NCBI GenBank assembly: GCA_001972305.1 | Contig: BDDD01001971.1 | Span: 306,965-370,964 of the forward strand | Origin: Cephalotus follicularis | Taxonomy: Eukaryota; Streptophyta; Magnoliopsida; Oxalidales; Cephalotaceae | Direction: 5' to 3' | DNA length: 64,000 nucleotides | Shown here: one piece after another, positions 3,441 to 58,532 of the stretch | How the letters are laid out: each line of letters opens with the position of its first letter | Position numbering within the stretch: position 1 is the stretch's first letter | Translations under genes and position numbers: made by a program | Notes under the pieces: generated by a model | The model's database searches: none | The model's input: the letters and a program-made list of their open reading frames with translations, nothing else | What the model was told of the DNA's origin: nothing

Positions 3441-3780
3441 AGGCGTCGACGTCTTTAATGAAAGACGTCGACTCCTCTTTAAAATGGAGGAAAGACGTCG
3501 ATGTCTTTCCTTGTTTATGTAGAGGATTGGCCAAAAGACGTCGACGTCTTTAATGAAAGGCGTCGCTGCTTTTCAATAAAATTAATGAGAGAGTACGCAT
3601 CGAGGTTCGGCATCGACGCCTTTTCTGGGAAGACGTCTCGATGCAAAGACGTCGACGTCTTCAGGAAAACGTCGATGTCTTTGCTGCAGAATCAAGAATA
3701 TTGCTCTCGTATGAGAAAGACATCGACGCCTTTGGGCTAGGGGTCGACGTCTTTCCTGTCAGTGTCGATTTTTCTGATAG
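3441..3780. repeat. GTCGAC palindrome array in family A LTR
   Basis: About a dozen irregularly spaced units of the form AAAGACGTCGACGTCTTT, intact or decayed (ATCGAC, GTCGAT, GTCGCT). Exact GTCGAC cores include 3445-3450 and 3467-3472. Spacers differ in length and sequence, so this is not a simple tandem repeat. Confidence 0.85.
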
Positions 3781-4539
3781 CAAATGGGTCAATCTCATAT
3801 CAAAATCCAATTAAAAGACATTATTTGAAAACCAAAGTTTACAATCAATCATTTGAGGTTAGTAAAACTAGTTACAACCTTCCAAAACCAATTTAATCAT
3901 TCAATTTAACAATTAGGTCAAGGGTTTGCTATAAACCCAAAAACCTCAATTCAATCACTCAATCATTCAATTCAATCATGCAATTCAGTCAATCAATCAA
4001 TAAAATAGTAGGTAATTCAGTAAATAAGTCCTACCTATCACTGAAGCTTCAAAAGTTGAGCTTCCACTCAATCAATCGGTAGAAAACGCCCAAAAACCGC
4101 TACTTTCTTGTTCAATCGGTAAGTTACAACTTGAATTCACTACTCTTGTTGATGGAGATGCAATCCCAACTGCAAGAGAGGAAGGTGGGGGCTGCCAGCA
4201 AGAGGGAGAGAGAGAGAAGATAGAGAGAGAGGAGAGGAAATGAGAAATGAGAGAAAAGAGAGAAAATTGACTTAAATAGTCAATTCGATCAACTCTCCGA
4301 AACTCCGTCCAAAAACCCGACTATACATGCATATAACCACTACAATATCAATAGGTATAAGAATACCTCAATACAATACGGTTCAGTACGGTCCAATATG
4401 GTACAAATACGGTACGGTGTATGCATGAATAGTACCAAAGGGAATTCGGTCGTCACACAGCTGGTTTTTGAGGATTTCCCTCATCAAATTTGAAGAGTCA
4501 TGCTTCATTAACCCTTGGATCCGATCAGTTTAACTTCTA

Positions 4540-6000
4540 GGGATTTAACTTCTAATCATAATCCTCTTTGGAATCGCTTCTATTTCAAAATCATTTTTGC
4601 TTCCAATTTCCTTTCGTTTACCCATTGCCTTCACTTTCAAAGCTTCCTCAGATTCCCCATATGCGTGCTCTTTTGGCCATTTATTTTTCTCGAAGCATTG
4701 TGTTCACATAATTAAATTAATACCGCAAGTGCACGAATCGTGCAACAATGGGTCGAACACGGGGTAACAAGTTTAAATTAATTTTAATTTATCAACCTAA
4801 GCAAAGTAAGCAAACTTGAAGGGATATTAAACTATGCAGAAATTAAAGTATGCAAAGATTATTTAATTAACAAAACAAAAAATATACTGAATAAAATATG
4901 TAAGATAAAATCAGTTTTAGGGTATAGAAACTAACCATAGATTTTATTGAGATATCCCTTTGATGTAGTTAGAGCTCCGACTAGATAATCTAGGAATTTT
5001 ATTTGCTTGGTTTGATCTTCACTTTATCTCTTCTGTTGATGTGTTGGTGATGTGGTATCTCTATAGCGGGAATCCATAAAATCTTTTCAATTAAATCCCT
5101 CATTTAATGATCCCAAGGCGACTTCTCAAAACAAGGGCTTTAATAAATGAAACGGTATCAACCAATTGAGATTTGTAACTTCTTCTTGTGCGGGTGCCTC
5201 AAAGAGTCTTTAGTAATTGCCCTTTAGGGATCGAATCTCTACTTTCAATCTATAAGTAGTACTTCCATGATTTGAGAGTGTCTTCATAGTAAGTCACCCT
5301 TTCGCTTAAATCCTTTCTTGAAATTGTTTGCCTTTAGTGATAGCTGATTACTCCTTGTGTGATGAAATGGTTGAGACCCAAGCAGAGGTCATCTCCATTT
5401 TGGAGAAGATCAACTTGTATGAACAACAGATGGTTTTAGAGAGAGAGAAGCTCTTCATCTTGCTGAGGACTCTCTCTGCCATTTGGGTCTTCTACAATTT
5501 AAGAGGGAGATCTCGATAGCCTATCGTAATGCGGACATGGTCAGATTTTTTGAGAAGCTTGAGGAGCAATTGTACTGGGTCTTCAAGAATCTGAAGCTGG
5601 TCAAAGAGATTCATAAGCCTGTGCACCCATCTCCTTACAATTTTAGGTTTCTTGGACCTTTTCCCCATGTAATTTTTCTTTATAATCAGACAATTCAATA
5701 ATATGAGCTTATTTTTGAATTGATTTCATGTTTTAATTCATTTCTTATCAATCATTTCGCCTTATTAAGGCTCATAAGTTTGTGCTCTGCAGTATAAGTT
5801 TTTTTTTTTTTTTGCATATTTCCTATATGCTTTTATAGGACTATAGGCGATCTCTGACCACACGTGATTTCTATGATGGGGGAGGTCTTGTTCAGATTAA
5901 AAGTTCCATTCCTCCTGTTGCAATTGAATCTCAGAGGTTCCATGACACGAGATACTTGCCCACTGTACATTCATCTCTGATGAATGACCTCTTTTCCTGA
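4540..6000 (+). pseudogene. antisense ORF (aORF) of the Tat element, spliced, broken
   Basis: This plus-strand ORF lies between the minus-strand integrase and the 3' LTR, where Tat elements are known to carry an antisense ORF. One reading frame runs through about 4540-4700, is cut by the LTR remnant 4701-5321, and resumes in the same frame from about 5327. It encodes a charged, coiled-coil-like stretch (VETQAEVISILEKINL). One frameshift near 5480-5520 moves it into the frame ending at 5668 with motifs such as HPSPYNFRFLGPFPH. GT at 5669 and AG at 5837-5838 flank a 170-bp T-rich intron. The last exon, 5839-6000, is in phase and adds 53 codons, including YDGGGLVQIKSSIPPV, then TGA. An earlier exon at about 585-750 (before the donor AAGGTAAGG) is possible. 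I do not know its function. Confidence 0.6.
4701..5321 (+). mobile_element. LTR remnant carrying the CCGCAAGTGCACG core
   Basis: It begins TGTTCACATAATT and carries at 4723-4770 the same conserved block found in the Athila LTR (11940) and the solo LTRs at 37736 and 47408. The right end has no clean CA. ATTG lies on both sides (4697-4700 and 5323-5326), and the interrupted aORF frame continues across it, so an insertion of about 620 bp fits. The rest of the sequence is noncoding and AT-rich. Confidence 0.6.
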
Positions 6001-6199
6001 GCCATTTATTTATTGACTAACTTAGTGCATTGCACCTATTATACCAGCTATGCTTTAACAAATAGTGTTTGTAAGTGAAATAGAGTTTCATTAATAATAA
6101 TAAGAAAACTCTTAACATACTAAGTAGGGAAGTTTCCCATTATTCGAGAATTCATTTTCCTAAACAAAAGTTCCTAAGGAAAAGACATGAAAGAGATTT
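6001..6199. other. Tat spacer between aORF and integrase ends
   Basis: About 200 bp separate the stop codon of the plus-strand aORF (5998-6000) from that of the minus-strand polyprotein (6200-6202). The two reading frames converge tail to tail. I see no further feature here. Confidence 0.4.
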
Positions 6200-7253: not shown

Positions 7254-8059
7254 TGTAAGCCCCGAATTTTGATGTACGGAATTGTATGTATCCATCTATG
7301 GTATTATACCCTGTTGTATTTACGGATGGTATGGATGGTATAATTGTGACGACCTGAATTCCCTTTTGTACTGTTCATGCATACATCGTACCGTATTGTA
7401 CCGTATTGTACTGTATCGGACCGTATTGTATGGTATTGAATTGAGGTATTCTTATGCCTATTGAGATTGTTTTGGTTTTATGCATGTATAGTCATGACTT
7501 TGAGCTGAGTTTCGAAGAGTTGACCGAATCGACTATATAAGTCAATTCTCACTCTCACTCTCTCATTTTCACACATCTTTCTCCCTCTCTCTCTCTCTCT
7601 AGCTGGAGCCTCCATCTTCCTCTCTAGCAGCCGGATTTGCAGCTCCTTCAACAAGGACACCGATTACAGGTGGTGGCTTACCGATTGAACAAGAAAGTAG
7701 CAGATTATTGGGCGATTTCTGCCGATCAATTGATTGGGAGCTCAACTTTTGAAGTTTCAGTGACATGTAGGACTTCTTTACTGAATTACCTACTGCTTTA
7801 TTGATTGATTGATTGAATTGCATGATTGAATGACTGATTGAATGATTGAATTGAATGTATTGAGTGAAATTAGGGTTTTTAGGATTTTTTAGTAAATCCT
7901 TGACCTAATTGTTAATAGAAAGATTGAAATGTTAAATTGAAGATTGTAACTAGTTTTACTAACCTTAAAGAATGATTTTTAACCCTTGGTTTCTTAAAGA
8001 ATGGATTTGATTGGATTTTGGCTTGAAATTTACTGGTTTTCTGCAGAAAAATCGGTCAT

Positions 8060-8405
8060 TCCCAGCAAAGACGTCGATCCCTTTGCCCATGGGCATAGAT
8101 GTCTTTCACTTTGGGACGTAGCCTCCTTGTTTTCGCAGCAAAGACATCGACGTCTTTGAAAGGCGTCGACGTCTTTTGCTTGAGATGCCTTTCCTCAGAG
8201 AAGGTGTCGACGCGAGACATCGATGCGCATTTCCAGGCCATTTTCATTGAAACGCGTCGACGTCTTTGTCCACGGACATCGACGTCTTCGGCCAAATTGA
8301 GAAATACATCGACGTCTTTGAAAGACATCGACGTCTTTCTACCGTTTTCAAAAGCATGCCCTGATACGCATCGACGTCTTTTTTTAAGGACATCGATGCC
8401 TTTCT
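8060..8405. repeat. GTCGAC palindrome array in family A LTR
   Basis: At least ten units of the AAAGACGTCGACGTCTTT type with decayed versions (CATCGACGTCTTT, CATCGATGC). It is the counterpart of the array at 3441-3780, but with differing unit number and spacing. Confidence 0.85.
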
Positions 8406-8661
8406 GGCCGAGTGGAATTTTTAACTGTTAAAGCTGGTTTTTCAACCCTTTTCACATTGCCGCTTGACCGGAGCCTCACTTGAGGTATTCAAGCGTTTAA
8501 AACATAGTTTCCAATGGTTTTTAAAGATCGAATTGATATATTGATAGAGTGACAGCTTGGGCCATAGGTGACGACTCAGTGACTCTCATTGACCAAATAG
8601 ATGTTCATTCCTATTCCGTCGATTTGATTGTCACCACCTAGCGGCTATAGGATGATTGATT

Positions 8662-8880
8662 GCTTGAGTCATGAGTGTTGTTGTGAGTCTAAGTCGGTAA
8701 AATGGACGCACGTTCCCATCCCTCCATTAGGCACCACCACTTATTGACTTTGCTTCGACGTTGTATTGATACATTGATCGATTGCTTGAGTCATGAGTGT
8801 TGTTGTGAGTCTAAGTCGGTACGATGGACGCGCGTTCCCATTTCTCCATTAGACACCACCACTTATTGACTTTACTTACA
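8662..8880. repeat. 121-bp tandem duplication in family A LTR
   Basis: Two copies start at about 8662 and 8783 with GCTTGAGTCATGAGTG. The inverted counterpart is visible at about 3105-3310 in the other family A copy, so the duplication predates both insertions. Confidence 0.75.
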
Positions 8881-10028
8881 TTGTATTGACTTGATTGATT
8901 GATTGTACTGTATGGATCCTATAGAGCGACCTTGTGGTTTACGTCGGCATATTAGGTCGACTTTGTCCACCTATTCTGTCGATCGTTTCTTGTATTGTAT
9001 TGTCTTGCTGACGAGCATGTGCTGATGAGCACGATTGATTGACGATTGACGCTCGTTGAGGGTCGTAGCTCCCTAACGGCATCAGTAGCTCCCTCAGTTG
9101 TAGCTCATCGAGATTGTATTGGCCCAGCCATAGGCTGGAAGATCTATGCGTTCCAGACCTGATCAGTCTGAGAACCGTAGATAGATCTCCCACCCTTTTT
9201 GAAGGACTACCTTCCGTGGGATTGATCATTGCTATCTTATTGACATTGTATTTGACACCGGTCGCATGCTCTATAGGATATTGATTGATTGATTGGGTGT
9301 TTCATACACCACCATTGAGTGTCTGCCATTGATTGATTGTTATAGATCCCATCCGTATGCTCTGTTATGGGCCACTATCATACGGGTAGTTTGATCACCA
9401 ACTGTACGCATGCATTTTCCATGTCATGCATTAATATTGTACACTGCACATTGATATTGTATAGATTGTCACCGATATTGCACATTGTACATGCATACAT
9501 GCTGCATGGGGTTTCTGCTTAGCCAGTGTGGCTAACCCCATCCTTCGGGGTGGGGCTGTGTTGTACCTTTGTGTGCGGCATAGGTAGGGCAGCAGGTAGC
9601 AGTGGACAGAAGGACTGAAGACCCGTTGACCGCACGACTTCTTGGGTATCTCGAAGCTGGTAAAGATATTGTAGTGAAGGATGGAAATGTATTGCATTGT
9701 AATACTGTATTGAAAGATTGATAAGTGTATTGTAAAAGACTAGTATTGTAAAGGATTTGTATTGTATTGATTTGTATGGATGGATCATTGATATTGTAAC
9801 TTCCGCAAATGAGATATATTGCAAAGTTTTAAAGTTTTCCGCAATTTTATATTGCTAGTCCCGACCATTGTATTGTGTATTGGATTGAGAATAATGCCAC
9901 GTATCCGCCCTGCGGGCGCGGGGTGTTACAATAATATACTATGGTATTTTCCTTTTTATGGATGTTTATGGGTTATGGGGGTTCATTAGAACCTAGGGAG
10001 AGCTTTTGAGTTTTTGCCCAAGGGAGCC

Positions 10029-10036: not shown

Positions 10037-10599
10037 GGCGATCTGAACTCTTCTTTCTCATAATTTCTCTTCTTATCCTTCTAGAGAGATAGTGAGAGAG
10101 TGAGTTAGAGAGAGGAAGCTCATATTTGGGCAAGGAAAGAGCCATTGGATTCGTGAAAGAGTTTAGAGCTTGAAGGAAGGATCACATCAAAGTTTCAATA
10201 GCAAATCCTTCCAGATCTGCATCTTAACAGTTATCGAGATAGGTTCTACTTATATGCTCTGAATTTGCATGTAGAACTGAATTGTATGATGGTATGGGTA
10301 TGGTTTGGTAGATCAGGGCTAGATGAATGAGTTAGGGTAAATGGTATGGTTAATAATGGATCAATATGGAAATCATAGAGAGAATTGAGAGTTTTAGGTT
10401 TGCAGGCCTAATCTCTTCTCTATATTGATTATAGATTTAAGGGTATGGATCTAACGGTTTAAAGTTGTTTTCAAGCTATAATCAATCATTGGAGCTTATA
10501 GCTTCCTTTGGATCGAGTTTTAAAGGGATTGAAATGGATTTTGGGCTATTAATAGCCGTATGGCGACTTGCTGCTAAGTCCGAAACCGTCAGCGCTTTA

Positions 10600-10825
10600 A
10601 CAAAAACGTCGACGTTGTTCTTAGTTGTTGACTATCAACACCTGCATAAACCATTGATGCTTGAGCAATAATCGTCGACACTTTGCCTAGTGTAGGGACT
10701 ATCAACGCTTTGCTCTATCATCGATGCTTGGATTAAGTGCATAAACCACCAATGCCTTGCATGAAACTGGAAACGCTTAGCCCTTAACAGCCGATACTTT
10801 CGACTGAACAGTCGGCGCTTTGCGC
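10600..10825. repeat. decayed GTCGAC array in family B LTR
   Basis: It contains one clean AACGTCGACGTT, one TCGTCGACACTT, and many degenerate relatives (ATCAACGC, ATCGATGC, CGACTGAACAGTCGGCGC). The density is lower than in the other arrays. Confidence 0.6.
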
Positions 10826-11460
10826 CATGTTTTATTTGAAATGAAATGGTTTTCAACCCCAAACCCTTTTATCTTAAAATGGGTTTCATAGGAAGCCTCC
10901 CTAAGGCCATGTAACCTATGGGAACCTCTTTTTAAACACAATCAATTCTCAAATCGATCTTCAATGGATTTCAACAAGGTTTTCTACAAATGGTTATATG
11001 AACTTTGATAGGATCAAGATAGGGATATGACAGGATATGGTTAGACCTAAGGGAACACCATTAGGGACTAGAACCTTTGATGACTAGCATTACAATGAGG
11101 GTATAAAAAGGGTTGACGGATGGATCCCATGGGATCCTTTATGGTTATGTCCCTATCTTTTAAATGGTAAAACGGTTTATGATTTTATGGCTTAAAGGGT
11201 TTCAATGGTTTTATGGTTTAAATAGGTTAAGGTTATGGCTTAAGGGTTTATGGTTATGGTGTTAAAGGTTTATGGTTAAGGGCTATGTTTGATATGGATT
11301 ATTCTTGACTAGATAACCCATTCCTAATCCTTACCATCATGGAGATTAGGGGTGTTGACCACACAGTACGAAAGTTGTATGGACCTATAGGAACCACTTT
11401 AAGGGTGAACCTACGAAGAGACACCGCATTGTGGATTGACCTATAGGACTGTGGCATTTA

Positions 11461-11816: not shown

Positions 11817-11906
11817 GGTATGGTTATGGTAGGGTCAGGGTATGGTTATGGTAGACTTAGGGTATGTCTATGGTAGGGTCAGGGTCAGGGTATAGTTATG
11901 GTATGG
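11817..11906. repeat. minisatellite cut by the Athila insertion
   Basis: Imperfect repeats of TATGGTTATGGTAGGGTCAG. It continues at 31688-31725 beyond the Athila element, so the Athila target lies within it (target copy TATGG). Confidence 0.75.
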
Positions 11907-12360
11907 TGTTCACGAATTTTGAAAAGAATTAAATTTATACCGCAAGTGCACGGTTGTGCAGTAATGGGTCGAACGCTAGGAAACAAGTTAAATCAGTTTT
12001 AATCTATCCAACCTATGCGAAGTATGCAAAATTGGGGGCTATTATAAAAAAAACTACTCATAAACATGTAAAAAGAAACTAATTATTAAAACAGGCGTGT
12101 AAAGCGTCGACGCTATGAACGAAGGTATCAACGATATAATCAAAAGCACTGAAATAGTCGACAAAAGGCGTTGATGGTTATAACCACTAAATTGAAAACC
12201 AACAAAAATTAAAGCATGCAAACTATTAAGTATCAAAGCAGGAAATAAAACTAAATGAAATATGCAAGATAAAGTCGGTTTTAGGGTATAGAAAACCAAC
12301 ATAAATTATATTGGGAACTAACTTACTTGATTTCTCAAACCTTGGTAATCAACAGCTGCT

Positions 12361-12511
12361 AGGTCGACACGGAGTGTGACAGTGATGACAAATCGTATGA
12401 GTAGTCATGCTAGGTCTATACAGAGTGTGGCAATGGCGACAAATCGTATTAGTACACATGCTAAGTCTATACGGAGTGTGTTCAGCGTGACAAACCGTAT
12501 GAGTAGACATC
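12361..12511. repeat. three-copy tandem repeat, about 51-bp unit, in Athila LTR
   Basis: Units start at 12361, 12412 and 12463 with the pattern AGGTCTATACGGAGTGTG followed by CGTATGAGTAGACATGCT. The same unit occurs three times in each related solo LTR (38101 and 47780). Confidence 0.85.
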
Positions 12512-12919
12512 CATTGATTTCATGCAAACACCATTCATTCAACTGTTTTCTTCTTCACAGACAAAGTGTATGTGGATTTTAATCAGACATACAAAGTGTG
12601 GGAGATGTCAAAAAATTGAAGAACAAATCAAAAGTTCAAGGATTTAATTAATGGAGTAGTATCAATATATCTAATGGCCTGTTCTAACCCTAAAAACCTT
12701 GAAAGTTTAATTACAAAACATTGTAATAAAAGATGGTAAAACTAAGGAAGAAGAGAGGAAGCTGCTAAGTGAGTGGCTAGCTTGTTTATGGCCAGACTCT
12801 CCTCCTTTTATACTGTTAAACATGTATAAAAACGAAAATAAAGTTTAACCTAATTAATCCATTTAAGGAAAGTATTACAATCATCAAAAACTCTAAAAAC
12901 TTTCCATTTTTGCTGTCTG

Positions 12920-13180
12920 ATACGTCGTAAGCGTCGACGCTTTTCTTCTGGGCGTCGACAGTTTGTCACTTGGTGTTGACGCTTTCATAATGTGAAGGTG
13001 AAATTGTTTCGCGCTTTAGTTGTTAAGCGTCGACAGTAATGAGCAAGGTGTCTACGGTTTAGTACAGATAGTTGTGGGAATTTCTCTACGCGTCTAAAGG
13101 TTGACGCTTAAAAAAATTCCCTCAGCGCTTTGCGTGTAGGCGTCAACGCTTAAGTGGAACCCGTCGACGCTTTGCCCTGT
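12920..13180. repeat. GTCGAC array in Athila 3' LTR
   Basis: The style here is AAGCGTCGACGCTTT, for example AAGCGTCGACGCTTTTC at about 12930, GGCGTCGACAGTTTG, AAGCGTCGACAGTAA and CCCGTCGACGCTTTGCC. Decayed forms such as GTTGACGC and GTCAACGC are mixed in. Confidence 0.85.
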
Positions 13181-40617: not shown

Positions 40618-40662
40618 TCCACCCCTCCTTCAAGGAATTTTGTCTTCGAAATTAAAACAACA

Positions 40663-46241: not shown

Positions 46242-46242
<1 letters not shown>

Positions 46243-47407: not shown

Positions 47408-48924
47408 TGTTCACTGTTAAAAAGAATGTTTTAAAATTAATAGCCGCAAGTGCACGGATCATGCAGTAATGGGTCGAACACAGGGAAACGTAAACTAGTT
47501 GTAATTTATCCAACCTAGGCGAAGTATACCAATTTATGAGATAAACTATTAAAAACTACTCCTAATTATGCAAAATAAAATAAATAATCAAAACAAGAAA
47601 TTAAAACTTCGAGAATTGAAAACATTGAATTTGAAATACTAAGAAATAAAGCATGCAATAAATAAAAGTAAAGAGAATATATAATAAAGAAACGGTTTTG
47701 GGGTATAGAAACTCACCGTAGATTGTATTGAACAATTCCATTGAGTTGAACGATCATTCCTTGTTAAACAACTAGAGCTAGGTCTATACAGAGTGCGGCG
47801 GTGATGACAAGATGTATGAATAGATATGCTAGGTCTATACGAAGTAAGGCAAACGTGGCGGCAAGACGTATGAGTAGTCATGCTAGGTCTATACAAAGTG
47901 TGTTCGTTGCGACAAATCGTATGAGTAGACTCCGTTGAATTGAGCACCATTTATTCACCAACTTTAAGCTTCACCGACAAGATGTTTGTGGATTTTAATC
48001 AGACAGACAAAGTGTTTGTGAAGGCAGAAATATTGAAGAATAAATCAAATATTCAAAGATTTTTATTGATGGAATTGAAACAATAACAATCTAGGCTTTG
48101 TTCTTCCCCAAAACCTTAAAAGGTTTAGCTACTAAACATTGTGAAATAAAACTAAAGTGATAAAGAGAGAATTAGGGTTACTACTCTACCTACATACATA
48201 CACACATACTATTTTTGGCCGGCCATACATTGTTTATATACTGCAAAACTGATCAAAAACGGAATAAAAGCAATCCTAGTTACAAAATATGGCAAAAATC
48301 TAAACTTTCTATTTCTGCTGCAGAGGAAGACGTCGACTTCTTTGTAAAGGCGTCGACTTCTTTTGTGTAAAAGTCGCGACTTGCTGATATGCGAGTGAAA
48401 GGCGTCCACTTCTTTTCTAAAGACGTCGACTTCTTTTGCTCAAAAGTTACAGGACAATTTTGCTCAAAGACATCGATGTGTATGTTGAAAGACTTCGATC
48501 TTCATGAAAGGCGTCGACGTGTTTGTAAAAAGACGACGACTTCTTTTTCATAGCTCTTTCAAGATTGTTGCGTTTTCCAGAAAAGACGTTGACTTCTTCT
48601 TGAAAGACGTCGACGCGATTGTGTAAACCCAGAAAAGACATCGATGTACATGAAAGACATCGACGCGTTTGATGAAAGCAAGAAAAGACATCGACTTCTT
48701 CTTGAAAGACATCGACGCTTTTGCCCTGTTTTCTGCAGAATTTGGCATTTCTTCAATCTTTATTCCTTTAAGCTCCAATTTACACAACTTTGGGTAGTAT
48801 TCTTGCACTTTGGTGATTTAACACTTGTACCTGAAAATCAATATAACACAACCAAAGTAGTCTATTCCAAGCATAAAAATATCACAAATAATGCATTACA
48901 AACAACACATTTTTATGCTAAACA
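47408..48924 (+). mobile_element. Athila-like solo LTR
   Basis: 1,517 bp, TGTTCACTGTTAA to TTTTTATGCTAAACA, flanked by CTCAG (47403-47407 and 48925-48929). Same family as 37736-38885. Contains the CCGCAAGTGCACGGATC block (47443-47490), the tandem repeat (47780-47935) and a long GTCGAC array (48330-48725). No internal region. Confidence 0.88.
48330..48725. repeat. GTCGAC array in Athila-like solo LTR
   Basis: About 15 units. The prevailing form is AAAGACGTCGACTTCTTT, with AAGGCGTCGACGTGTTTG and AAAGACATCGACGCTTTTG. Units are often paired head to tail about 25-30 bp apart. Confidence 0.85.
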
Positions 48925-48929
48925 CTCAG

Positions 48930-49456
48930 CTCCCTTTTTCTATTTGGGGCTTCTTTAAATCGACCCAAATAGACTTTGCGGATCATCCTTTCTATCCGAT
49001 TCTTGAGATGTCATCATTTATTAGTATCATGGCCAATCGCACGATGAAATTCGCAAATACTTGTTTTGGTTTCTTTTCTCAAATGGCCTTTTCAATGGCT
49101 CTGGATACTTGATCAGCTCATTTTTCATTTCCTAGAGGATATTTGCATATGTTACTGTTAGGTTCGTATACTTCGCAAATCCCCTGAATTGGGGCTTCTG
49201 AGTTTCCATCCCTTTACTCCTTTTATTTTTATCTTTCGCTTTCATTGAATCCTCCTTTCCTTTTCTTTTCTCTCCTCGGGCTTGCGAAGATTTGCGTGAG
49301 TCACCTCTTCTATAATCTAGTGCATCTCTGACTTTCATAGCGTTCATTGCTTCTCCTGCATTTATATACTTCTCCGCCCATTTGAGGAGTTCTTCCATAT
49401 TTTTTGTGTGCTTCTTCATCAATGAAAATTTGAATTGAGTCTTTTTAAGTATGCTC
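48930..49456 (-). pseudogene. Tat gag C-terminal part
   Basis: Minus strand. KKTQFKFSLMKKHTKNMEEL and WAEKYINAGEAMNAMKVRD are typical of Tat gag. A lysine/arginine-rich run follows, then a CEFHRAIGHDTN zinc-finger-like motif in a shifted frame. The frame joins 58538 across the SIRE insertion with no stop. Confidence 0.8.
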
Positions 49457-50492
49457 TGTTGACATTTATGTCTCAATCCTAATTTTGATGATAACATATT
49501 TGTAACTAATGATTTAATTTTGTTCAGGATAAAACAGATGATATACTCACACAAACTGTTTAAAGCATCAACAGTCGACAGTTATTATTAAAGCGTCAGC
49601 GCTTATGGCATTAAGCGTCGAAGGCATCATTCTAAAGGAGATTAAAGTGCCAGCGCTTATGGCATTAAGCGTCAAAGGGCATAACTCTAAGCACCAGCAG
49701 TTGAGCACAAAAGCGGCGACAGTTAAAAACAAAGCGACAGTGGTTTAAGGACAAAGCGGCGACAGTTGATAACAAAGCGACAGCAGTTAAGGACGTGTAG
49801 CCTAGACAAATGAGAACAAAGCGGCAACGCTTTATTTTTGACCTTCAGCGCTTAATACTCAAAGCGGCAGCATTTTACTTAAAGCGGGGAAGCTTTACAC
49901 GGGTGAATAAAAACAAAGCATAATGGTAACATTTAAGCGTCGACGCTTAAATCGAAACTGTCGACGCTTTGGTCAGCAATTGCAATCTGATCGTGCCTTA
50001 TCAACGCTTAATTCAAGGCCAAGATTTCCAAAATGGTTACAACGGATATGTGATGATTCCAACGGCTCTTTTCAGCAAGAATACTATAAATAGATGTTCA
50101 ATTCACACCAACAAAGCATCAATGAATACTACAATATCTCCTGTCTCAAATTCAAGAGTCTTTATTGTTGTTAGCATTATTTTGAGCTATTCTTGTTTTA
50201 TTTTATTGTGAGCAACATTAGTCTATATCTGACCTTTGAGGGGTCACACAAAATCACAAAACATCTTTGTATTTGTTTGATTATTCAAGGAGAGTGAACC
50301 CTTTGTCTGTGTGATTGAGGTCAATCACAAGAAGTGTAAAGGTGCACCGAATATTTCCTGGAAAGATATTCGGAGAATAGTGGAAACTCAAGGACGTCCT
50401 TGGGAAAAATAGGCGTAGGCAAGAGTTTGGCCGAACCACTATAAAACTGTGTTTGCACTTTCTTACTCTCTCTTTATTTTATTGATATATTG
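49457..50492 (+). mobile_element. SIRE-type LTR, truncated at its 3' end
   Basis: Starts TGTTGACATTTATG directly after the target copy TGCTC (49452-49456). It holds a GTCGAC/AAAGCG array (49557-49980), a TATA-like ACTATAAATAG near 50085, and the SIRE-type boxes TGATTGAGGTCAATCAC and GCCGAACCA (50430). It ends ATTGATATATTG without CA and abuts the LTR of the next SIRE element. Confidence 0.7.
49557..49980. repeat. AAAGCG / GTCGAC array in SIRE-type LTR
   Basis: Units such as AAGCGTCGACGCTTAAAT, ACTGTCGACGCTTTGG and CAGTCGACAGTT are mixed with many AAAGCGGCGACAGTT and AAGCGTCAGCGCTTATGG forms. This array shares the AAAGC flank with the Athila and Tekay arrays although the LTR is copia-type. 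Confidence 0.75.
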
Positions 50493-51222
50493 TGTTGGCC
50501 TTTGCCACCCCGATTAATGGCATTGCCATATGTTATTTTGATGATTAACAAACATAGATTTCTTGTATGCATAATTCTTTGAGTTATAACTTCATATACT
50601 CACTTGATTTTATGTCCAAAGTTGTGCCAAGAACATTTCTGTAGATACAGGCCAATCCAGCCGACTGGCAAGCAATCCAGTCGACTGCCCAAGGTTGTGT
50701 AGTCGACTGCCAGAGGTTGTGTAGTCGACTAGTTCTTCAATCAAACACAGAAATTGCAGGAGCACAAATCCAGTCGACTGCCACAGGGGTCCAGTCGACT
50801 GCCAGGCAAATCCAGTCGACTGCCACAGGACACCAATCGACTACCATGGGTGCATATTTCAGGCAGTAGCTTCTGTATCTTTTTAACACCCAATCCAGCC
50901 GACTGAAGCAGGGCACCAGTCGACTGCCAGGGGATCCAGTCGACTGCCAGTGAATCCAGTCAACTGCTTTCAATTGTGCAATTTCAGGCAGTAGCATTTG
51001 TAATCTTCAATTTCAGCTCAACAACCGACTGGAACAGAGCAACCAGTCGACTGCCAAGCATACCAGTCGACTGCCTAGAGGATCCAGCCGACTGCCCAAC
51101 CCCAACGGCTATATTCAAATGTACGCGCCATCAATCCAGCCGACTGCCGTACAAATCCAGCCGACTGGATTTGTAACAGACCTTTAAAAATAGATCTGTT
51201 GGAGGCTCAACTATATAAAGGA
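50493..51222 (+). mobile_element. SIRE left LTR, 3' truncated
   Basis: It matches 57505-58230 almost base for base, from TGTTGGCCTTTGCCACC to the TATA box region CAACTATATAAAG. After that it departs into gag sequence. About 300 bp of LTR are missing relative to the right copy. Confidence 0.88.
50655..51180. repeat. CCAGTCGACTGCC array in SIRE left LTR
   Basis: I count 18 units in about 520 bp, at roughly 50656, 50676, 50700, 50722, 50770, 50790, 50811, 50831, 50893, 50909, 50935, 50956, 51021, 51041, 51061, 51086, 51137 and 51157. Most are CCAGTCGACTGCC; variants are CCAGCCGACTG, CCAATCGACTA and CCAGTCAACTG. It ends close to the TATA box at about 51206. Confidence 0.92.
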
Positions 51223-52117
51223 AGACACAAACAAAGAGGTGGCTCAAATAGCCTTGATGGCTTTAGAGGATCAAGAAGAAGAAGAAAATGATGAGGTAAC
51301 ATATGACGAACTTGTCTTATTAGTAGAGAAATATAGTTCTATGATTGCTTCATTGAAGAAAAAGGTTAAGTCATTAACATATGAAAATGATGGACTAAAA
51401 TTGGCTAAGGAAGAAACCTCAAATGAAATTGAGGTAGACCTCCTTGAAAATGAAATAGCTTACCTTGTTAAGGAAAACAAAAATCTCAAGGAAGAGATAG
51501 AGGCCCTAAAGAAAACCTTTTCAAAATTCTCTAATAGTAGTGAGAAGCTTGAAAAACTCCTTGGTATACAAAGATGTGTATTTGATAAAGCCGGATCAGG
51601 ATTTGAAGAAATGAACAATATAAAGCTTTATCAAACATTCTTTGATAGGAAGGAGAAAATTGAAAAGGAAAAGATTGATAAGGCCAAGATGAAAAAGAAA
51701 ACCATGTGTGATTATTATGGTAAAATAGGACACACATCCTTTACTTGCTTTCACAAAAAGAATGCCATGTTTAGAAAGAATGTGATTAGATCATGCAATT
51801 TTTGTGGTAAACATGGACACACACACTCACAATGTTATCATAGAAGAAATTCCATGAGTAAGAAAAATATCATGTGTACACATTGTGGTAAATTTGGTCA
51901 TGCTTTTTCATCATGTTTTCATAGAAGAAACAATGTAGTTGTGTCTTGCAATACTTGTGGTAATCATGGACACACTTCTACTTCATGTTTTTGTAAACAA
52001 AATGTATTGAATGGTTTGAACTTCTCTAGAACAAAAAGAAGTTGGGTTCCGAAAGGAACTATTTTGACTAACCCTAAAGGACCCAAGATTTGTTGGGTAC
52101 CTCAAACAAAAATTTGA
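51206..52117 (+). CDS. SIRE gag, N-terminally truncated, four zinc knuckles
   Basis: The open frame comes straight out of the truncated LTR (KEDTNKEVAQIALMALED) with no proper start, so it is a partial gag. An acidic stretch is followed by a long coiled coil (about residues 25-105) and then four tandem CX2CX4HX4C modules. They are CDYYGKIGHTSFTC (second Cys replaced by Tyr), CNFCGKHGHTHSQC, CTHCGKFGHAFSSC and CNTCGNHGHTSTSC. It ends in VPKGTILTNPKGPKICWVP, typical of SIRE gag ends. Pol lies in the same frame after two stops (52115 and about 52130). Confidence 0.8.
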   Translation, partial: LNYIKEDTNKEVAQIALMALEDQEEEENDEVTYDELVLLVEKYSSMIASLKKKVKSLTYENDGLKLAKEETSNEIEVDLLENEIAYLVKENKNLKEEIEALKKTFSKFSNSSEKLEKLLGIQRCVFDKAGSGFEEMNNIKLYQTFFDRKEKIEKEKIDKAKMKKKTMCDYYGKIGHTSFTCFHKKNAMFRKNVIRSCNFCGKHGHTHSQCYHRRNSMSKKNIMCTHCGKFGHAFSSCFHRRNNVVVSCNTCGNHGHTSTSCFCKQNVLNGLNFSRTKRSWVPKGTILTNPKGPKICWVPQTKI

Positions 52118-52132
52118 AATCTATGTTTGTAG

Positions 52133-55100
52133 GTGTGCTTGAAGGCATTATTCAAAAAGGCACAATGGTACTTGGATAGTGGATGCTCCAAGCATATGAC
52201 GGGTGACAAGAGTCTCTTCGTCAAATATGAATCAAAGGAAGGAGGAGAAGTAACTTTCGGAGACAATGCAAAAGGAAAAATCAAAGGTGTTGGCTCCATA
52301 GGTAATCTCAAAACTTCCATTCATAATGTGTTATTTGTTGATGAACTTAAGCACAATCTATTGAGCATAAGCCAATTATGTGACAAGGATTGTAAAGTCA
52401 TTTTTGAAAAGGACTTATGCAAGGTAATAGATATGAACAATGGTCAAGTAAAGTTTATTGGACATAGGCATGGAAATGTATATGTAGTAGACATAGATGA
52501 TTTAATAAATATTAAATGCTTAGTTTCCATGAATGATGATAGTTGGCTATGGCATAGAAGACTAGGTCATGTAGGAATGTCAACCATTTCAAAGCTTTTG
52601 AAACATGAACTAGTTAAAGGACTTCCTAAAATTAGTTTTGAAAAGGATAGAGTTTGTGATGCATGTCAATAAGGAAAACAAACTAGAGCCTCATTTCAAA
52701 GCAAGAACATAGTATCCACAACTAGGCCTTTGCAACTTTTATATCTAGATTTATTTGGACCAATAGATGTTAGGAGCCTAGGAGGAAAATCTTATGCCTT
52801 GGTCATTGTAGATGATTATTCAAGATATACATGGACTATTTTTCTAGCCCACAAAAGTGAATCTTTTAAAGAATTTTCAAATTTTTGCAAAACCGTTCAA
52901 AATGAAAAAGGCACTTCAATTTCTAAAATTAGAAGTGATCATGGAAAAGAGTTTGAAAATCATTTATTTGAAAACTTTTGTAATGAAAATGGCTTTATAC
53001 ATGAGTTCTCCACTCCTAGAATACCTCAACAAAATGGGGTTGTTGAGAGGAAAAATAGAACTCTACAAGAAATGTGTAGAACTCTTTTGAATGAAAATAG
53101 TTTACCAAAATACTTTTGGGCTGAAGTAATAAGTACTTCATGTTATATCCTTGATAGTATATCAATTAGGCTTATTCTAAAAAAGACTCCATATGAGTTA
53201 TGGAGGGGGAGAAAGCCTAACATTAGTTATTTCCATACCTTCGGATGCAAGTGCTTTATCCACAATAATGGAAAAGAGCATCTTGGAAAATTCGACTCTA
53301 AAGTCGACGAAAGCATATTTCTTGGTTATTCTTCCACTAGTAGGGCTTATAGATGTTTTAACAAAAGAACCTTACTTGTTGAAGAATCCATGCATGTGGT
53401 TTTTGATGAATCTAACCCTAAACTTCCAAAAGAAGTTAATATTGATGATTGTGTAGATTTCATTGAAAATGGTGTTAGCAAGATTAATCTAGATGAAGCA
53501 AAAAGGGAGGAGTCTACCGAAGGAGAAACCCCTCAAGAAGACTATCAAGAAGCTCTTCATGACCATACCTTGAAGGTGGTAAGAGGACATCCTCATGAAG
53601 CTATTATAGGTAACCCTAGATTAGGTGTTTCTACTAGAAGTAGCATTAATCATAATTATATTGCATTTTTATCTCAAATCGAGCCTAAAAATATAAATGA
53701 GGCCGAAAAAGATGAAAATTGGATCAATGCCATGCAAGAGGAATTAAACCAATTTGAAAGAAATAAAGTGTGGAACTTAGTACCTAGACCTAGCAATCAA
53801 AATATTATAGGTACAAAATGGGTCTATAGGAATAAGGTAGATGACCAAGGCATTGTTATTAGAAACAAAGCTAGGTTGGTTACTAAGGGTTATTCCCAAG
53901 AAGAGGGAATTGACTTTGATGAGTCATATGCACCCGTAACAAGATTAGTATCTATTCGTATGTTGCTTGCATATGCATCTTTTAAAGATTTTACTCTTTT
54001 TCAAATGGATGTCAAAAGTGCTTTTTTAAATGGGTTAATTAAGGAGGAAGTGTATGTGGAACAACCTCCCGGGTTTGAAAACCCTCATTATCCCAACCAT
54101 GTTTTTAAGCTTTCAAAAGCTTTGTATGCCTTGAAACAAGCTCCAAGAGCTTGGTATGAGAAGCTTAGTAGATATTTACTTGAAAATGGTTTTAAGAGAG
54201 GCACTATTGACATTACACTTTTTACAAAATCTGTCAATAAGGAAATTTTGATTGTTCAAGTGTATGTAGATGATATCATATTCGGTTCTACTAACAAAAA
54301 TTTATGCAAGAACTTTGCTAAGATTATGCAGGTGGAATTCGAGATGAGCATGATGGGTGAGCTCAATTACTTCCTTGGACTTCAAGTCAAACAATTGGAG
54401 GAAGGCATCTTCATAAATCAATCAAAGTATGTCAAGGACCTACTTAAGAGATTTGGGATGGAGAATGCGAAAAAGAGCAAGACACCCATGAGCACTACAA
54501 CAAGGCTTGACAAGGATGAGCAAGGTAAGTCAATCGATCAAAAATTATATAGAAGTATGATTGGATCATTGTTGTATTTAACGGCAAGTAGGCCGGATAT
54601 CTTGTTTAGTGTTTGTTTGTGTGCTAGATTTCAAGCTTGTCCCAAAGAATCTCATTTGCATGCCGTAAAACGCAATTTTAAATATTTAGCATATACACCG
54701 TCCTTAGGATTATGGTATCCTAAGAAATCGTCATTTGACCTACACACTTATTCCGATGCCGATTTCGGAGGATATAAGGTGGATAGAAAAAGCACAAGTG
54801 GCACTTGTCAATTCTTAGGCAATATGTTAATCTCATGGTTTAGCAAGAAACAAAATTCGGTAGCACTTTCGACTACCGAAGCCGAATATATTGCCGCAGG
54901 TAGTTGTTGCGCACAAGTAATGTGGATGAAGCAACAACTTCTTGATTATGGTTTTAACTTTGTAAAAGTGCCAATTAGGTGTGATAACACTAGTGCTATA
55001 TCCTTAGGGAAAAATCTTGTTCACCACTCTAGAACTAAGAACATAGACATTAGATACCATTTCATTAAATACCACATTGAAAAGGGTGACATAGAATTAG

Positions 55101-55207
55101 TTTTCGTCCTGATCGAAGAACAAGTCGCGGACATTTTCACCAAACCATTAGATGAACAAACCTTTTCAAAATTTAGATTGGAACTATGTTTGTGTGAAAT
55201 TGATTGA
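52133..55207 (+). pseudogene. SIRE pol: protease, integrase, RT, RNase H
   Basis: One continuous frame of about 1,025 codons with a single nonsense codon (TAA at 52670-52672) between protease/GAG-pre-integrase and integrase. Protease has WYLDSGCSKHMTGD. GAG-pre-integrase has SWLWHRRLGHVGMSTI. Integrase has LDLFGPI, IRSDHGKEFEN and VVERKNRTLQEMC, so D, D and E are intact. RT has WVYRNKVDDQG, QMDVKSAFLNG, LYALKQAPRAWYE and the catalytic VQVYVDDIIFGS. RNase H has YSDADFGGYKVDRKSTSG, STTEAEYIAA and VRCDN-like IRCDNTSAIS. By sequence every catalytic residue is present. Confidence 0.92.
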
Positions 55208-55479
55208 TCAATATGTTTCTATTATTATTGTGAATGGTTGATCAAAATGCATGTTTTCTCTTTTGTGCATCATTTATATTCAATTAAATCCCTTGATAAT
55301 TATTGTGTGAATTGGATTGAAAAATGTTTTTCAAAGATCATCATGCATTTAGACATTGAGTTTTCAACTCAATAACAAAAATTAGCTCATGTACCTAGGT
55401 TGCTATTAGTCCATAATAGTTAATCAAAGTATAACAAATCACTTGGATTGGCAATTTTTCTGCACCTTCTTTTTCTGCA

Positions 55480-55545
55480 GAAAACAGCCGACTGGAAATC
55501 AAATCCAGTCGACTGCCATTAGTGGGCCAGTCGACTGGACTCGCG
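55480..55545. repeat. GTCGAC units upstream of the env-like ORF
   Basis: Three units, CAGCCGACTGG, CCAGTCGACTGCC and CCAGTCGACTGG, lie about 110-170 bp before the ATG at 55652. They are of the same type as the LTR array and are the only copies I see in the interior. Confidence 0.85.
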
Positions 55546-55651
55546 ATGATCAGGGTTTTTAACCCGAAATCCCCCTGTCTCTCTCACTTCTATCATAATT
55601 TTAAAACATCCAAAACCCTATTTCTCTCAATTTCTCGACCTGCAATCATCA

Positions 55652-56473
55652 ATGGGACCTAAGAGACAAAGAGGAACTACTTCAAGGCAACCAAGGGGCT
55701 CACAAGAGGAGATTGACTTTGACAACACCCTCTTTCTCTCCAAAGAGAAAGAGATGAGGTATAATTCCTTTTTTAGCTCAGTTAAGTTGCATTATGAGAA
55801 ATGGCTGAGTAGAGATGTGTTAATTAGCAATCTTGCTGTTGTGATAACATGGTTAGAAGCTATGGGTTGGTTTAACTACATTTGCTCTTCTCATGTCATA
55901 TACCCTAGGTTAGTTAAGATGTTTTATGCTAACCTTGAGTCTTCCACCACTTGCATTGCAAAATCCTTTGTTTTAGGCACTCATATATCTATTACTCCTG
56001 AATTAATAGCAGAGACCTTAGAAATTCCAAATGAGGGAATTAATCATTTCAATGATATCGAAAAAACGGAGGCCCTAGGAATTTGTTTAGAGCAACCAAA
56101 TGTCAATCCTCTCATGAATGTGACTAGTAGTCATTTGCCTATTGCCTCTAGGATCATTCTACTTCTTGTAACAAACACATTCCTCCCAAGAGAAGGCTCG
56201 CATACTCTTCCTTCCGAGCGAGACCTAAAATTTGTTGCATGTGTCAAAAATGGTACTCACATTAACCTTCCTTACTTCATTGTCAACCATTTTCTATCTA
56301 GACCAAATCACACTCCTTATCCTATGCTTCTCAGTAGGATCATTGAGGTTGTCTTTGCATCTCTTAACATTGATATTCCTGATGATGAGCAAAGTATTAA
56401 ACCTTCCCATAAGCAATTGGTGAATAAAGCTGGGCTTAGACAATGTAACATTATATTTGAGGATGGTGAGTGA
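55652..56473 (+). CDS. SIRE additional ORF (env-like position), part 1
   Basis: 273 residues. It starts MGPKRQRGTTSRQPRGSQEE (basic N-terminus), then a largely helical domain with WLEAMGWFNYI, VKMFYANL and FVLGTHISITPELIAETL. This is the plant transposon-associated domain commonly found in the ORF that follows pol in SIRE/Maximus elements. It sits in the position called env-like, but I see no convincing signal peptide or membrane anchor. The frame ends with TGA at 56471-56473. Function unknown. Confidence 0.75.
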   Translation: MGPKRQRGTTSRQPRGSQEEIDFDNTLFLSKEKEMRYNSFFSSVKLHYEKWLSRDVLISNLAVVITWLEAMGWFNYICSSHVIYPRLVKMFYANLESSTTCIAKSFVLGTHISITPELIAETLEIPNEGINHFNDIEKTEALGICLEQPNVNPLMNVTSSHLPIASRIILLLVTNTFLPREGSHTLPSERDLKFVACVKNGTHINLPYFIVNHFLSRPNHTPYPMLLSRIIEVVFASLNIDIPDDEQSIKPSHKQLVNKAGLRQCNIIFEDGE

Positions 56474-56575
56474 GTCTAATTACAAGGCAGAGGTAGAGAG
56501 CAAGTAAGAGAGTAAGCCAATGTTAGGGTTGAAGATGAGGAGGATGATGATGAGGACGATCCTCAGCAGTTTGAG

Positions 56576-56806
56576 GTGCGTCCGAGTGTTGGCGCTAGCA
56601 GCAGCAGCAGCTGGCCTACCCTGGAGTCACTTCAGGCTAGGATGGATCTTGCCCAGGCCGACATCGAATATCTCAAAGGGAAAATGAACCAGTTCAGCGA
56701 AGGACAAGCCAATATTCTTCAAGGTCAAGCCGACCTCCTTCGGGGACAAGCAAACATCATTGAGATGTTTCAAAATGCTTTCCCACAGCACCCTCCTCCC
56801 TCCTGA
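56576..56806 (+). pseudogene. SIRE additional ORF, C-terminal coiled-coil part
   Basis: Separated from part 1 by about 100 bp with two or three stops, but the sequence between (EDEEDDDEDDPQQFEVRPS) is protein-like and in the same style. It has a Ser-rich stretch and then a repetitive helix with GQANIL, GQADLL and GQANII at 7-residue spacing, and ends QHPPPS. In related elements this forms the C-terminus of the same ORF. Confidence 0.65.
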
Positions 56807-57490
56807 GCTACATTTGTTGCATATCATGTTTTTCTTTTGTACTTTTGAACTTGGTTGTAATTTGTAAACCTTTTATGTGGTTTGCCTTTGTAAAAGGCAA
56901 TTTGAACTCGGTTATGTATTTGATGGTTTTTTTAAGCATTTAATGACAATATGCATTTGATCTTTAATGTTTTTATGGAATTACAATGTGTTTCATATTA
57001 TTGCTTTGATCTTGTTTACAATATGGCTAATGCACTTGTTTATGTACTTCAAGTTTTTAATTGATTAATGGAATTGTGCTTCAATCTTTATTGATCTTCA
57101 ATTGATTCTCTTATTGCATTGACATTATTGATAAAATTGAATTTGAATGCATATATTGAGGGGGAGCTCTTCAATCCATGCTATGATTGAGGGGGAGCTT
57201 CCATTTCTCTTTTTGTTGTTTGACAAAAAGGGGGAGAGATTTATATTTTATATTTTGCATTGCACATTGCATTGAAGTTGAAAGCTTGCATAAATGAAGT
57301 TGCATGCATTTGGGGAATATATTGCTAAAATTGCATATTGATGAGATGGGTTGTGATCTTGCGTTAAGCAAGTGTGTTTTGATATACCATATGCATTGGA
57401 TATGCCAAAATTGATAATATTGGACATTGGAACTAAAATTGGTTAAGTTTGTCAAGATTTATGCAAAATATGAATGTTTTGTCAATCATC
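56807..57490 (+). other. SIRE 3' untranslated region with repeated polypurine tracts
   Basis: AT-rich and noncoding. It holds three G-rich tracts, TTGAGGGGGAGCTC (about 57155), TTGAGGGGGAGCTTCC (about 57186) and AAAAAGGGGGAGAG (about 57226), before the final tract at 57491. Duplicated polypurine tracts are common upstream of SIRE 3' LTRs. Confidence 0.6.
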
Positions 57491-57504
57491 AAAAAGGGGG
57501 AGAT
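57491..57504 (+). other. SIRE polypurine tract
   Basis: AAAAAGGGGGAGAT directly before the LTR start TGTTGGCC. Confidence 0.85.
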
Positions 57505-58532
57505 TGTTGGCCTTTGCCACCCCGATTAATGGCATTGCCATATGTTATTTTGATAATTAATAAACATAGATTTCTTGTATGCATAATTCTTTGAGTTATA
57601 ACTTCATATACTCACTTGATTTTATGTCCAAAGTTGTGCCAAAAACATTTCTGCAGATACAGGCCAATCCAGCCGACTGGCAAGCAATCCAGTCGACTGC
57701 CCAAGGTTATGTAGTCGACTGCCAGAGGTTGTGTAGTCGACTAGTTCTTCAATCAAACACAGAAATTGCAGGAGCACAAATCCAGTCGACTGCCACAGGG
57801 GTCCAGTCGACTGCCAGGCAAATCCAATCGACTGTCAGAGGACACCAGTCGACTGCCATGGGTGCACATTTCAGGCAGTAGCTTCTGTATCTTTTTAACA
57901 CCCAATCCAGCCGACTGAAGCAGGGCACCAGTCGACTGCCAGGGGATCCAGTCGACTGCCAGTGAATCCAGTCGACTGCTTTCAATTGTGCAATTTCAGG
58001 CAGTAGCATTTGTAATCTCCAATTTCAGCTCAACAACCGACTGGAACAGAGCAACCAGTCGACTGCCAAGCATACCAGTCGACTGCCTAGAGGATCCAGC
58101 CGACTGCCCAACCCCAACGGCTATATTCAAATGTACGCGCCATCAATCCAGCCGACTGCCGTACAAATCCAGCCGACTGGATTTGTAACAGACCTTTAAA
58201 AATAGATCTGTTGGAGGCTCAACTATATAAAGAAATTTGGAGCTCTTGCACAAGTGATCAAGTATTAAAGTTGAACATTCATTCTAGCAATATCAAGCAA
58301 CCTCCAAGCAATTCTAAACATCAAAAGAGAGCAACACAAGTGATCAAATTTTGTAATATCCAACCTAGTGAGAGGTTTAGATCAAAACAATACTTCATTC
58401 ATTTTGATTGTAATAGGGGAGTGAACCCTAGTGAAGTTGGGGAGTGAACCCAAAGAAAATTGTAAGTGATTGAGGTCAATCACAAAGGTGTTCCGAATAG
58501 CACCCGGCCCCACAAACTCTTGTAGTATTTCA
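57505..58532 (+). mobile_element. SIRE right LTR
   Basis: 1,028 bp, TGTTGGCCTTTGCC to TTGTAGTATTTCA, followed by the target copy TGCTC. It includes the GTCGAC array (about 57665-58180), the TATA box CAACTATATAAAG at about 58219 and TGATTGAGGTCAATCAC near 58470. It lacks the GCCGAACCA box found in the other SIRE-type LTRs. Confidence 0.85.
57665..58180. repeat. CCAGTCGACTGCC array in SIRE right LTR
   Basis: The same arrangement as 50655-51180, with the same number and spacing of units. The two arrays differ only in a few bases, for example CCAATCGACTGTC here against CCAGTCGACTGCC there. Confidence 0.92.

Follow-up and report, generated by a model that had tools for sequence, protein, structure and literature searches.

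GTCGAC-centred palindromes form arrays in Ty3/gypsy and Ty1/copia long terminal repeats of Cephalotus follicularis

A stretch of 64,000 nucleotides of the genome of the Australian pitcher plant, Cephalotus follicularis (contig BDDD01001971.1, positions 306,965–370,964, assembly GCA_001972305.1), here called the window and used for all coordinates, carries long terminal repeats (LTRs) of several retrotransposon families, and arrays of short palindromes centred on GTCGAC lie within most of the LTR stretches counted. The carriers are the Tekay-type LTRs TekP and TekM, the Athila-type LTRs Ath1 and AthX, the SIRE-type copia LTRs SIRE1 and SIRE2, and LTR families A and B (Table 1). The lineage names Tekay, Athila and SIRE follow a first-pass annotation of the window and general background rather than trees, and we take Ath1 and AthX to belong to the Athila clade on the same basis. 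The open reading frame (ORF) adjoining TekP has a chromodomain at the integrase end (PF00385, E = 2e-6), a Tekay integrase piece matches a Cephalotus protein with 92% identity along 76% of its length, and reverse transcriptase and RNase H domains lie between the Ath1 LTRs. LTR limits were set by us, the 3-prime limit of family B (~10950) being a guess; sequences fetched from outside the window carry L numbers.

The window contains 68 copies of GTCGAC, whereas 100 shuffles that preserve dinucleotides gave 5.1 on average and never more than 12; no other of the 64 six-base palindromes is as common there. The first-pass annotation had proposed comparing its density in LTRs with that in shuffled sequence; in the window, LTR density proved far above it, with 62 of the 68 sites falling within 24.4 kb of LTR, two just upstream of a copia env-like ORF and four in the remainder of the other 39.6 kb. 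All ten intervals in which the annotation had placed arrays contain them, with 3–11 exact sites each and 54 of the 68 together. The assignment to LTRs stood for 12 of the 16 LTR stretches counted, in which exact sites occur at 1.2–15 per kb and always at or above the largest value in 300 shuffles of the same stretch, but not for the other four, in which no exact site is present: a 361-bp family A end piece, both family E LTRs and AthX copy 1.

This feature is genome-wide and not limited to the window. Across the 1,577,397,061 bases counted, GTCGAC occurs 849,481 times, as against 231,366 for the reversed word CAGCTG, which has no CpG. In 20 stretches of 10 kb, taken at a fixed place (50001–60000) from spread-out contigs and not selected by content, GTCGAC was the most over-represented six-base palindrome, with 102 copies seen and 16.1 expected from dinucleotides, and 11 of the 20 held at least two copies within 150 bp of each other. 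Scaling that chance expectation gives ~0.13 million copies genome-wide, from which we infer ~0.7 million extra copies. Chance as the origin of the arrays was ruled out by the window shuffles, the genome sample and the per-LTR shuffles.

As the first-pass annotation had noticed, the palindromes extend beyond the core; exact examples measure 18 bp (3534–3551), 26 bp (46647–46672) and 22 bp (49931–49952), with arms of 9, 13 and 11 bases. What is shared is the GTCGAC core, whereas the extended palindrome is not one sequence: three forms stand out, type I (AAAGACGTCGACGTCTTT), type II (TAAGCGTCGACGCTTA; with flanking bases, (T)AAGCGTCGACGCTT(A)) and type III (CCAGTCGACTGCC), among many decayed or intermediate ones. 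Genome-wide, the exact type I unit occurs 4,083 times and its reversed control 18 times, while the exact type II unit occurs 3,257 times and its control not at all. Half-site typing is clear for AthX (type I) and for SIRE1 and the Tekay-type stretch L009 (type III), fair for family A and TekP (type I), and partial for Ath1, SIRE2 and TekM, with many half-sites matching no type; TekM has five type II left halves and two type I-like right halves. In a tally of eight-base cores at 170 sites from the window and the 20 genome stretches, CGTCGACG was found 68 times and AGTCGACT 40 times. The leading one-mismatch variants in 19 arrays are ATCGAC (n = 37), whose excess fits CpG decay, and GCCGAC (n = 21), whose excess does not. 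A two-unit type I pattern also matched two viral contigs, and the match in the one examined (L001) was taken as chance because that contig has 63% GC.

Lineage and unit type do not coincide. Tekay-type LTRs hold all three types (I in TekP, II in TekM, III in L009), Athila-type LTRs hold type I (AthX, in the window and in L018 and L021) and type II (Ath1), and SIRE-type copia LTRs hold type II (SIRE2) and type III (SIRE1). Type II represents 16 bases identical between copia and gypsy LTRs, and type III at least 13 bases identical between copia SIRE1 and the Tekay-type LTR in L009. SIRE2-family LTR copies lie on both sides of a copia pol in L017. Ten exact type II sites from the genome (the second to eleventh listed of 3,257) fell into four SIRE2-family LTRs (L031, L035 and L036, and L034 by short matches only), three Athila-type LTRs (L032, L033 and L037) and three unassigned sequences.

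The spacing of the units also recurs. Between neighbours among 270 GTCGAC positions there are 150 gaps no longer than 130 bp, of which 67 measure 19–23 bp, one 6–17 bp and six 25–36 bp. When units with at most one mismatch are taken in the 19 arrays, 89 of 158 gaps are of 19–23 bp, against a shuffled mean of 0.5; if the duplicated arrays of Ath1, SIRE1 and family A (its inverted copy) are counted once, 69 of 126 remain. Every one of the resulting 16 arrays has at least one such gap, and those of SIRE2, family B and TekM cluster 1 have just one. We read this spacing as two helical turns, although tandem duplication of a 21-bp unit yields equal spacing, so that spacing alone is no proof of protein binding. 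A helical phase signal outside the 21-bp spacing (R 0.28 at 10.3 bp, p ~0.02) is not relied on, the period having been picked post hoc and the null range being mismatched. In Ath1, AthX, SIRE2 and SIRE1, the first TATA-like box lies 91–140 bp downstream of the end of the last exact main-array site; the order array-then-TATA is thus common to gypsy and copia.

Table 1. Arrays, TATA-like boxes and related sites in the window (LTR positions are counted within the LTR)
Feature	Position	Strand	Remarks
Type I array, inverted LTR family A copy	3441–3770	-	5 exact GTCGAC; 10 units with at most one mismatch
Type I array, LTR family A (LTR ~7347–9930)	8063–8405	+	10 units
Degenerate array, LTR family B (from ~9931)	10595–10830	+	5 units; 0 of 5 half-sites type II
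Type II array, Athila-type LTR Ath1 (11906–13379)	12925–13175	-	8 units; spacings 21, 42, 50, 21, 54, 21, 21
First TATA-like box downstream of Ath1 array	12806–12812	-	LTR position 568; array sites 212–442 (last GTCGAC starts at 442)
Three extra Ath1 GTCGAC downstream of TATA-like box	12106–12368	-	At 12106, 12157 and 12363; the first two in a stretch unaligned to the other Athila-type LTR in self-comparison
Type II array, second Ath1 LTR (remnant 30845–31690)	31250–31480	-	Unit spacings identical to 12925–13175
Type I cluster 1, Tekay LTR TekP (21046–23855)	21219–21385	+	Chromodomain ORF 20179–20997 upstream
Type I clusters 2 and 3, TekP	22135–22550	+	Mostly decayed, 1 exact GTCGAC; LTR positions 1096–1491
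Type II cluster 1, Tekay LTR TekM copy 1 (38887–40617)	40366–40419	-	Cluster 2 missing in copy 1
Type II cluster 1, TekM copy 2 (45330–47367)	47085–47180	-	LTR positions 199–267; TekP cluster 1 equivalent at 180–318
Type II cluster 2, TekM copy 2	46647–46785	-	26-bp exact palindrome 46647–46672
Type I array, Athila-type LTR AthX copy 2 (47408–48924)	48330–48725	-	11 units; mostly missing from copy 1 (37736–38886)
First TATA-like box downstream of AthX array	48234–48240	-	LTR position 685; array sites 311–588 (last GTCGAC starts at 588)
Type II array, SIRE-type copia LTR SIRE2 (49456–50491)	49565–50010	+	22-bp exact palindrome 49931–49952
First TATA-like box downstream of SIRE2 array	50085–50091	+	LTR position 630 (last main-array GTCGAC starts at 505)
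Type III array, SIRE1 copia 5-prime LTR (repeat 50493–51223)	50655–51175	+	17 units; 12 of 16 spacings 19–23 bp
TATA-like box downstream of SIRE1 array	51212–51220	+	LTR position 720 (last main-array GTCGAC starts at 574)
Type III array, SIRE1 3-prime LTR	57665–58185	+	17 units
Type III units upstream of SIRE1 env-like ORF	55485–55540	+	GTCGAC at 55508 and 55530

The first-pass annotation had called the carriers unrelated families. Gypsy and copia LTRs do both carry arrays, but the two Tekay LTRs share flanks and so do the two Athila-type LTRs. Positions 1–253 of TekP align with 3–272 of TekM at 64% identity, and 1394–2810 with 610–2038 at 63%; cluster 1 has a corresponding place in the two and a different type in each (TekP 180–318, type I; TekM 199–267, type II). 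The type III array of L009 is bordered on either side by sequence ~63–67% identical to the TekP flanks, and Ath1 and AthX are ~73–77% identical on both sides of arrays that are of type II and type I, respectively.

Spacers between units were compared in 13 pairs of arrays after masking of units and degenerate units, with 300 nulls for each pair and no correction for multiple tests. Among the same-family controls, AthX copies scored 52 and 60, and SIRE1 against the L027 SIRE LTR scored 30; none of 300 shuffles reached these values. Five of the seven cross-lineage comparisons were at null level, below their 99th percentiles: TekP cluster 1 with AthX (15; null mean 13.8), TekP clusters 2 and 3 with AthX (16; 16.4), Ath1 with TekM (16; 12.9), Ath1 with SIRE2 (19; 15.7) and SIRE1 with the Tekay LTR of L009 (14; 13.5). 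The other two exceeded it, each with a score of 22 that was reached in two of 300 nulls: TekM cluster 1 with SIRE2, and AthX with LTR family A, which carries no lineage name and here shares the 11-base match TCTGCAGAAAA. SIRE2 and an unassigned array in L025 scored 22, under their 99th percentile of 23. The related pairs TekM/TekP (21) and Ath1/AthX (22) were also above the 99th percentile, an excess expected from shared LTR sequence. A first version of the comparison, in which degenerate units were left unmasked, gave signals linking some type I arrays across lineages; upon fuller masking the TekP signal was gone and the family A signal had shrunk to the 11-base match, so the units left unmasked account for much of that earlier result. 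Thus, units appear to be shared across lineages where most spacers are not. The five null-level comparisons speak against one transposed block, and gene conversion between LTRs, as suggested in the first-pass annotation, or block transfer between them is disfavoured, with the two cross-lineage pairs above the 99th percentile on its side.

Within a family, the arrays change quickly. Three AthX-family LTRs differ at 13.0% of unit positions (77/594), 18.5% of spacer positions (60/324) and 6.7% of flank positions (60/896); the units vary less than the spacers despite their CpG richness, and the array is the least stable part of the LTR, with more gaps than elsewhere. Array sequence is missing from one copy of two LTR pairs (AthX, 48277–48627; TekM, 46572–46859).

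Another short motif, the box TTTCTG[CT]AGA (in places TTTTCTGCAGAAAA), lies at most 127 bp from a GTCGAC at all nine of its matches in the window, which represent seven distinct boxes (8038–8050, 13181, 31496, 48730, 50636, 55472 and 57648); it is also present at L021:1110 and L027:7591. Its carriers are family A, Athila-type and SIRE LTRs and the env leader. Outside the window, two of six matches are that near to GTCGAC and four are at least 259 bp away. This leaves some room for the box as a second shared site or as a mark of module exchange.

In SIRE1 (50493–58235), nearly all listed relatives of ORF 52673–55207 have PF07727, which we take to be the copia-type reverse transcriptase domain, and the ORF that follows pol (55550–56473), preceded by the units in Table 1, has PF20167 (‘putative plant transposon protein’) and is read as env-like from its place. 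That family is strongly expanded: the ORF has 336 relatives at E ≤ 0.001, and among the 120 listed all are from Cephalotus. In L027, likewise, an array (7492–7667) precedes an env match (7785–8588). Four GGGGGAG polypurine tracts lie at 57160–57502 in SIRE1, the last as GGGGGAG-AT-TG at the LTR start, and the array, when GCCGAC units are included, stops ~45 bp before the TATA-like box TATATAAAG. Part of the 5-prime LTR and the leader seems to have been deleted, because the 5-prime repeat stops at 51223, directly into a gag-type ORF, while the 3-prime copy runs past 58235.

Other structures in and around these elements were recorded. The family A LTRs are mutually inverted (784–4457 and 7345–9931), and the left copy is split by an insert (~1142–2417) with inverted ends and a 266-bp palindrome. 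Element E (24314–30844) has long LTRs (24314–26485 and 28675–30844), 92.5% identical and without GTCGAC, around a gag-like ORF; the list of ORFs of at least 150 amino acids has no other between them. Between 37736 and 48924, Athila-type LTRs flank the Tekay element (38887–47367) with almost nothing else between, as if a Tekay insertion had occurred at a tandem Athila-type LTR junction. The TekP LTR has about four copies of a 30-bp tandem repeat at 23009–23139, the repeat unit of which lacks GTCGAC, and L016 has a tandem array (7701–9274) with a period of ~67–68 bp, possibly a satellite.

The first-pass annotation's statement that no described system matches was too strong. Palindromic repeated motifs were already known from Sireviruses, clustered ahead of the TATA box in the LTR and, in elements that have env, also upstream of that gene (Bousios et al., 2010; PMC2829016). 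There, each element has 8–32 units, mostly with CpG in the core; the core is CGG-CCG in all but Tnd-1, with one unit sequence per element, and the motifs are called Sirevirus-specific, while the Vitis unit CGGTCGACCG contains GTCGAC. The pol, env-like ORF, polypurine tracts and array layout of SIRE1 are like those described there. Unlike them, the core here is GTCGAC and not CGG-CCG: the units observed were CAGTCGACTG, AAGCGTCGACGCTT and AAAGACGTCGACGTCTTT, and GGTCGACC is absent from the 170 eight-base cores. Nor are the units restricted to Sireviruses, since type II of SIRE2 also occurs in Athila-type and Tekay LTRs and type III of SIRE1 in a Tekay-type LTR. It is this identity of core, and even of extended units, in Ty3/gypsy LTRs that goes beyond the Sirevirus motifs, and one core across Ty3/gypsy and Ty1/copia lineages of a single genome appears to be new. 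The palindromes of maize Copia LTRs, as presented in a citing paper (PMC5311732), are likewise fast-evolving and located in the regulatory part of the LTR; they differ in being described, in the portion available, from Copia families only and in having small-RNA data. In the one open-access library searched, the combination of GTCGAC, palindrome and LTR retrotransposon was unmatched, with the limit that matching at word starts misses GTCGAC inside longer words, as in PMC2829016. Among the matches listed for the unit words, all look unrelated by title.

VANDAL elements are DNA transposons. The targets of their VANC proteins are short, co-evolving motifs in tandem repeats that differ between related elements, and one target motif is also found in an unrelated element (Hosaka et al., 2017; PMC5735166). 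Unlike the units here, the VANC motifs printed in the accessible text are non-palindromic, and the VANC factor is element-encoded and was shown to bind. In the Arabidopsis FT promoter, a GTCGAC motif and the C-box GACGTC are both reported, in a 2026 paper, to be bound by the bZIP protein FD (PMC13360168). The six bases are identical to the core here, and one GTCGAC is overlapped by two GACGTC in the type I unit; however, the FD site is in a host gene promoter, it mediates repression and not activation, and the accessible part of the paper contains no link to LTRs.

Convergent capture of binding sites, which the first-pass annotation offered beside gene conversion and a methylation-sensitive element, is the best supported of the three readings, given the shared units, the mostly unshared spacers, the 19–23 bp spacing and the place of the main Athila-type and SIRE arrays before a TATA-like box. 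From these sequence features, we consider it an even call that a protein binding DNA as a dimer recognizes the rows of units, which the families would have gained convergently as enhancers of their LTRs. The binder would most likely be one host transcription factor or a small related group, recognizing a GTCGAC-centred palindrome; sites about two helical turns apart would allow several dimers to sit side by side and form an enhancer for the LTR promoter. Selection, together with tandem duplication on a local scale, would have built up such sites in unrelated Ty3/gypsy and Ty1/copia families, and the three unit types would mirror shifts in the preferred flanks. What the sequence shows directly is the enrichment, its location in LTRs, the sharing between lineages, the spacing, the differing types at equivalent LTR places and the scarcity of common spacer sequence; protein binding, a host origin of the factor and raised transcription on binding are inferred. 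That the Tekay, Athila-type and SIRE lineages are under one trans-acting system, which reads two-turn-spaced GTCGAC palindromes and whose targets change flank type in parallel as the system itself changes, is a possibility that we lean somewhat against. The bZIP group is a candidate class of binder, with FD as a lead only, because FD is reported on both GTCGAC and GACGTC, though in a repressing role; factors of the DREB/CBF type are a second lead.

Several observations weigh against such a protein. The flanks differ between types, so that a single protein would need to tolerate much variation, and the types themselves are blurred, with many untypable half-sites, mixed TekM units and a family B array of unclear type (no type II among its five half-sites). 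An 18-bp palindrome exceeds the usual length of a bZIP site. RYCGAC is the DREB/CBF-type site, and the enriched GCCGAC and ATCGAC variants would also fit it; ATCGAC is tabulated as CBFHV in the accessible part of one paper. The 21-bp repeat could be explained by tandem duplication alone, and a 10.5-bp period is weakly indicated in the remaining spacings. In Tekay LTRs, the arrays are spread over two or three places, some of them well downstream of the LTR start, and the TATA-like boxes are ambiguous; three Ath1 sites lie downstream of the TATA-like box of that LTR.

Four other explanations have to be set beside binding by a host factor. The arrays may be targets of a retrotransposon-encoded protein that removes silencing marks, as VANC does for VANDAL, with other families riding along. 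Here, too, related LTRs bear different unit types at one place, and SIRE1 has an expanded env-like ORF with units directly upstream; the VANC motifs as printed in the accessible text are, however, not palindromes (PMC5735166), and we regard this explanation as unlikely. We judge it similarly improbable that array modules were copied between LTR families by template switching, gene conversion or insertion, the sharing then reflecting exchange. The TTTCTG[CT]AGA box near arrays of family A, Athila-type and SIRE elements would fit such exchange, as would the masked spacers of family A/AthX and TekM cluster 1/SIRE2, but the other five cross-lineage comparisons did not exceed their nulls when same-family controls gave 30–60, and most box matches outside the window are far from GTCGAC.

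The palindromes might instead work at the RNA level, forming hairpins through which small-RNA silencing is either fed or evaded, a role put forward for maize Sirevirus LTRs. RNA folding of nine array pieces gave z-scores of -1.47 to -5.53, and palindrome-rich LTR regions of maize Copia families have been reported as small-RNA hotspots (PMC5311732). Nevertheless, any palindrome array folds well, RNA folding does not separate the readings, and hairpins require neither a common core across families nor a 21-bp spacing; we think such a role quite improbable. Neutral tandem amplification of short repeats, with a coincidental common core, would agree with the faster divergence and more frequent gaps of AthX-family arrays relative to LTR flanks, and with the fact that copia type III and gypsy type I agree in just six bases, GTCGAC. 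It is disfavoured by the 16 bases of type II and at least 13 bases of type III that copia and gypsy LTRs have in common, and we give it little credence. Selection for sites of a trans-acting protein fits better with the 16 bases common to copia and gypsy, the mostly unshared spacers, the recurring spacing and the place before the TATA-like box.

Palindromic LTR arrays of plant retrotransposons have been on record since at least 2010, and what they bind now becomes a testable question. The units, which are abundant, short and defined and exist in three natural variants, lend themselves to binding and reporter tests. If the proposed reading is true, many genomic parasites have settled on one control switch, with a code that unrelated elements share and chase, and for copia and gypsy families both to have captured this input would be striking convergence among parasites. 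If one factor controls most LTR retrotransposons of this 1.6-Gb genome, its growth could hinge on a single regulatory input.

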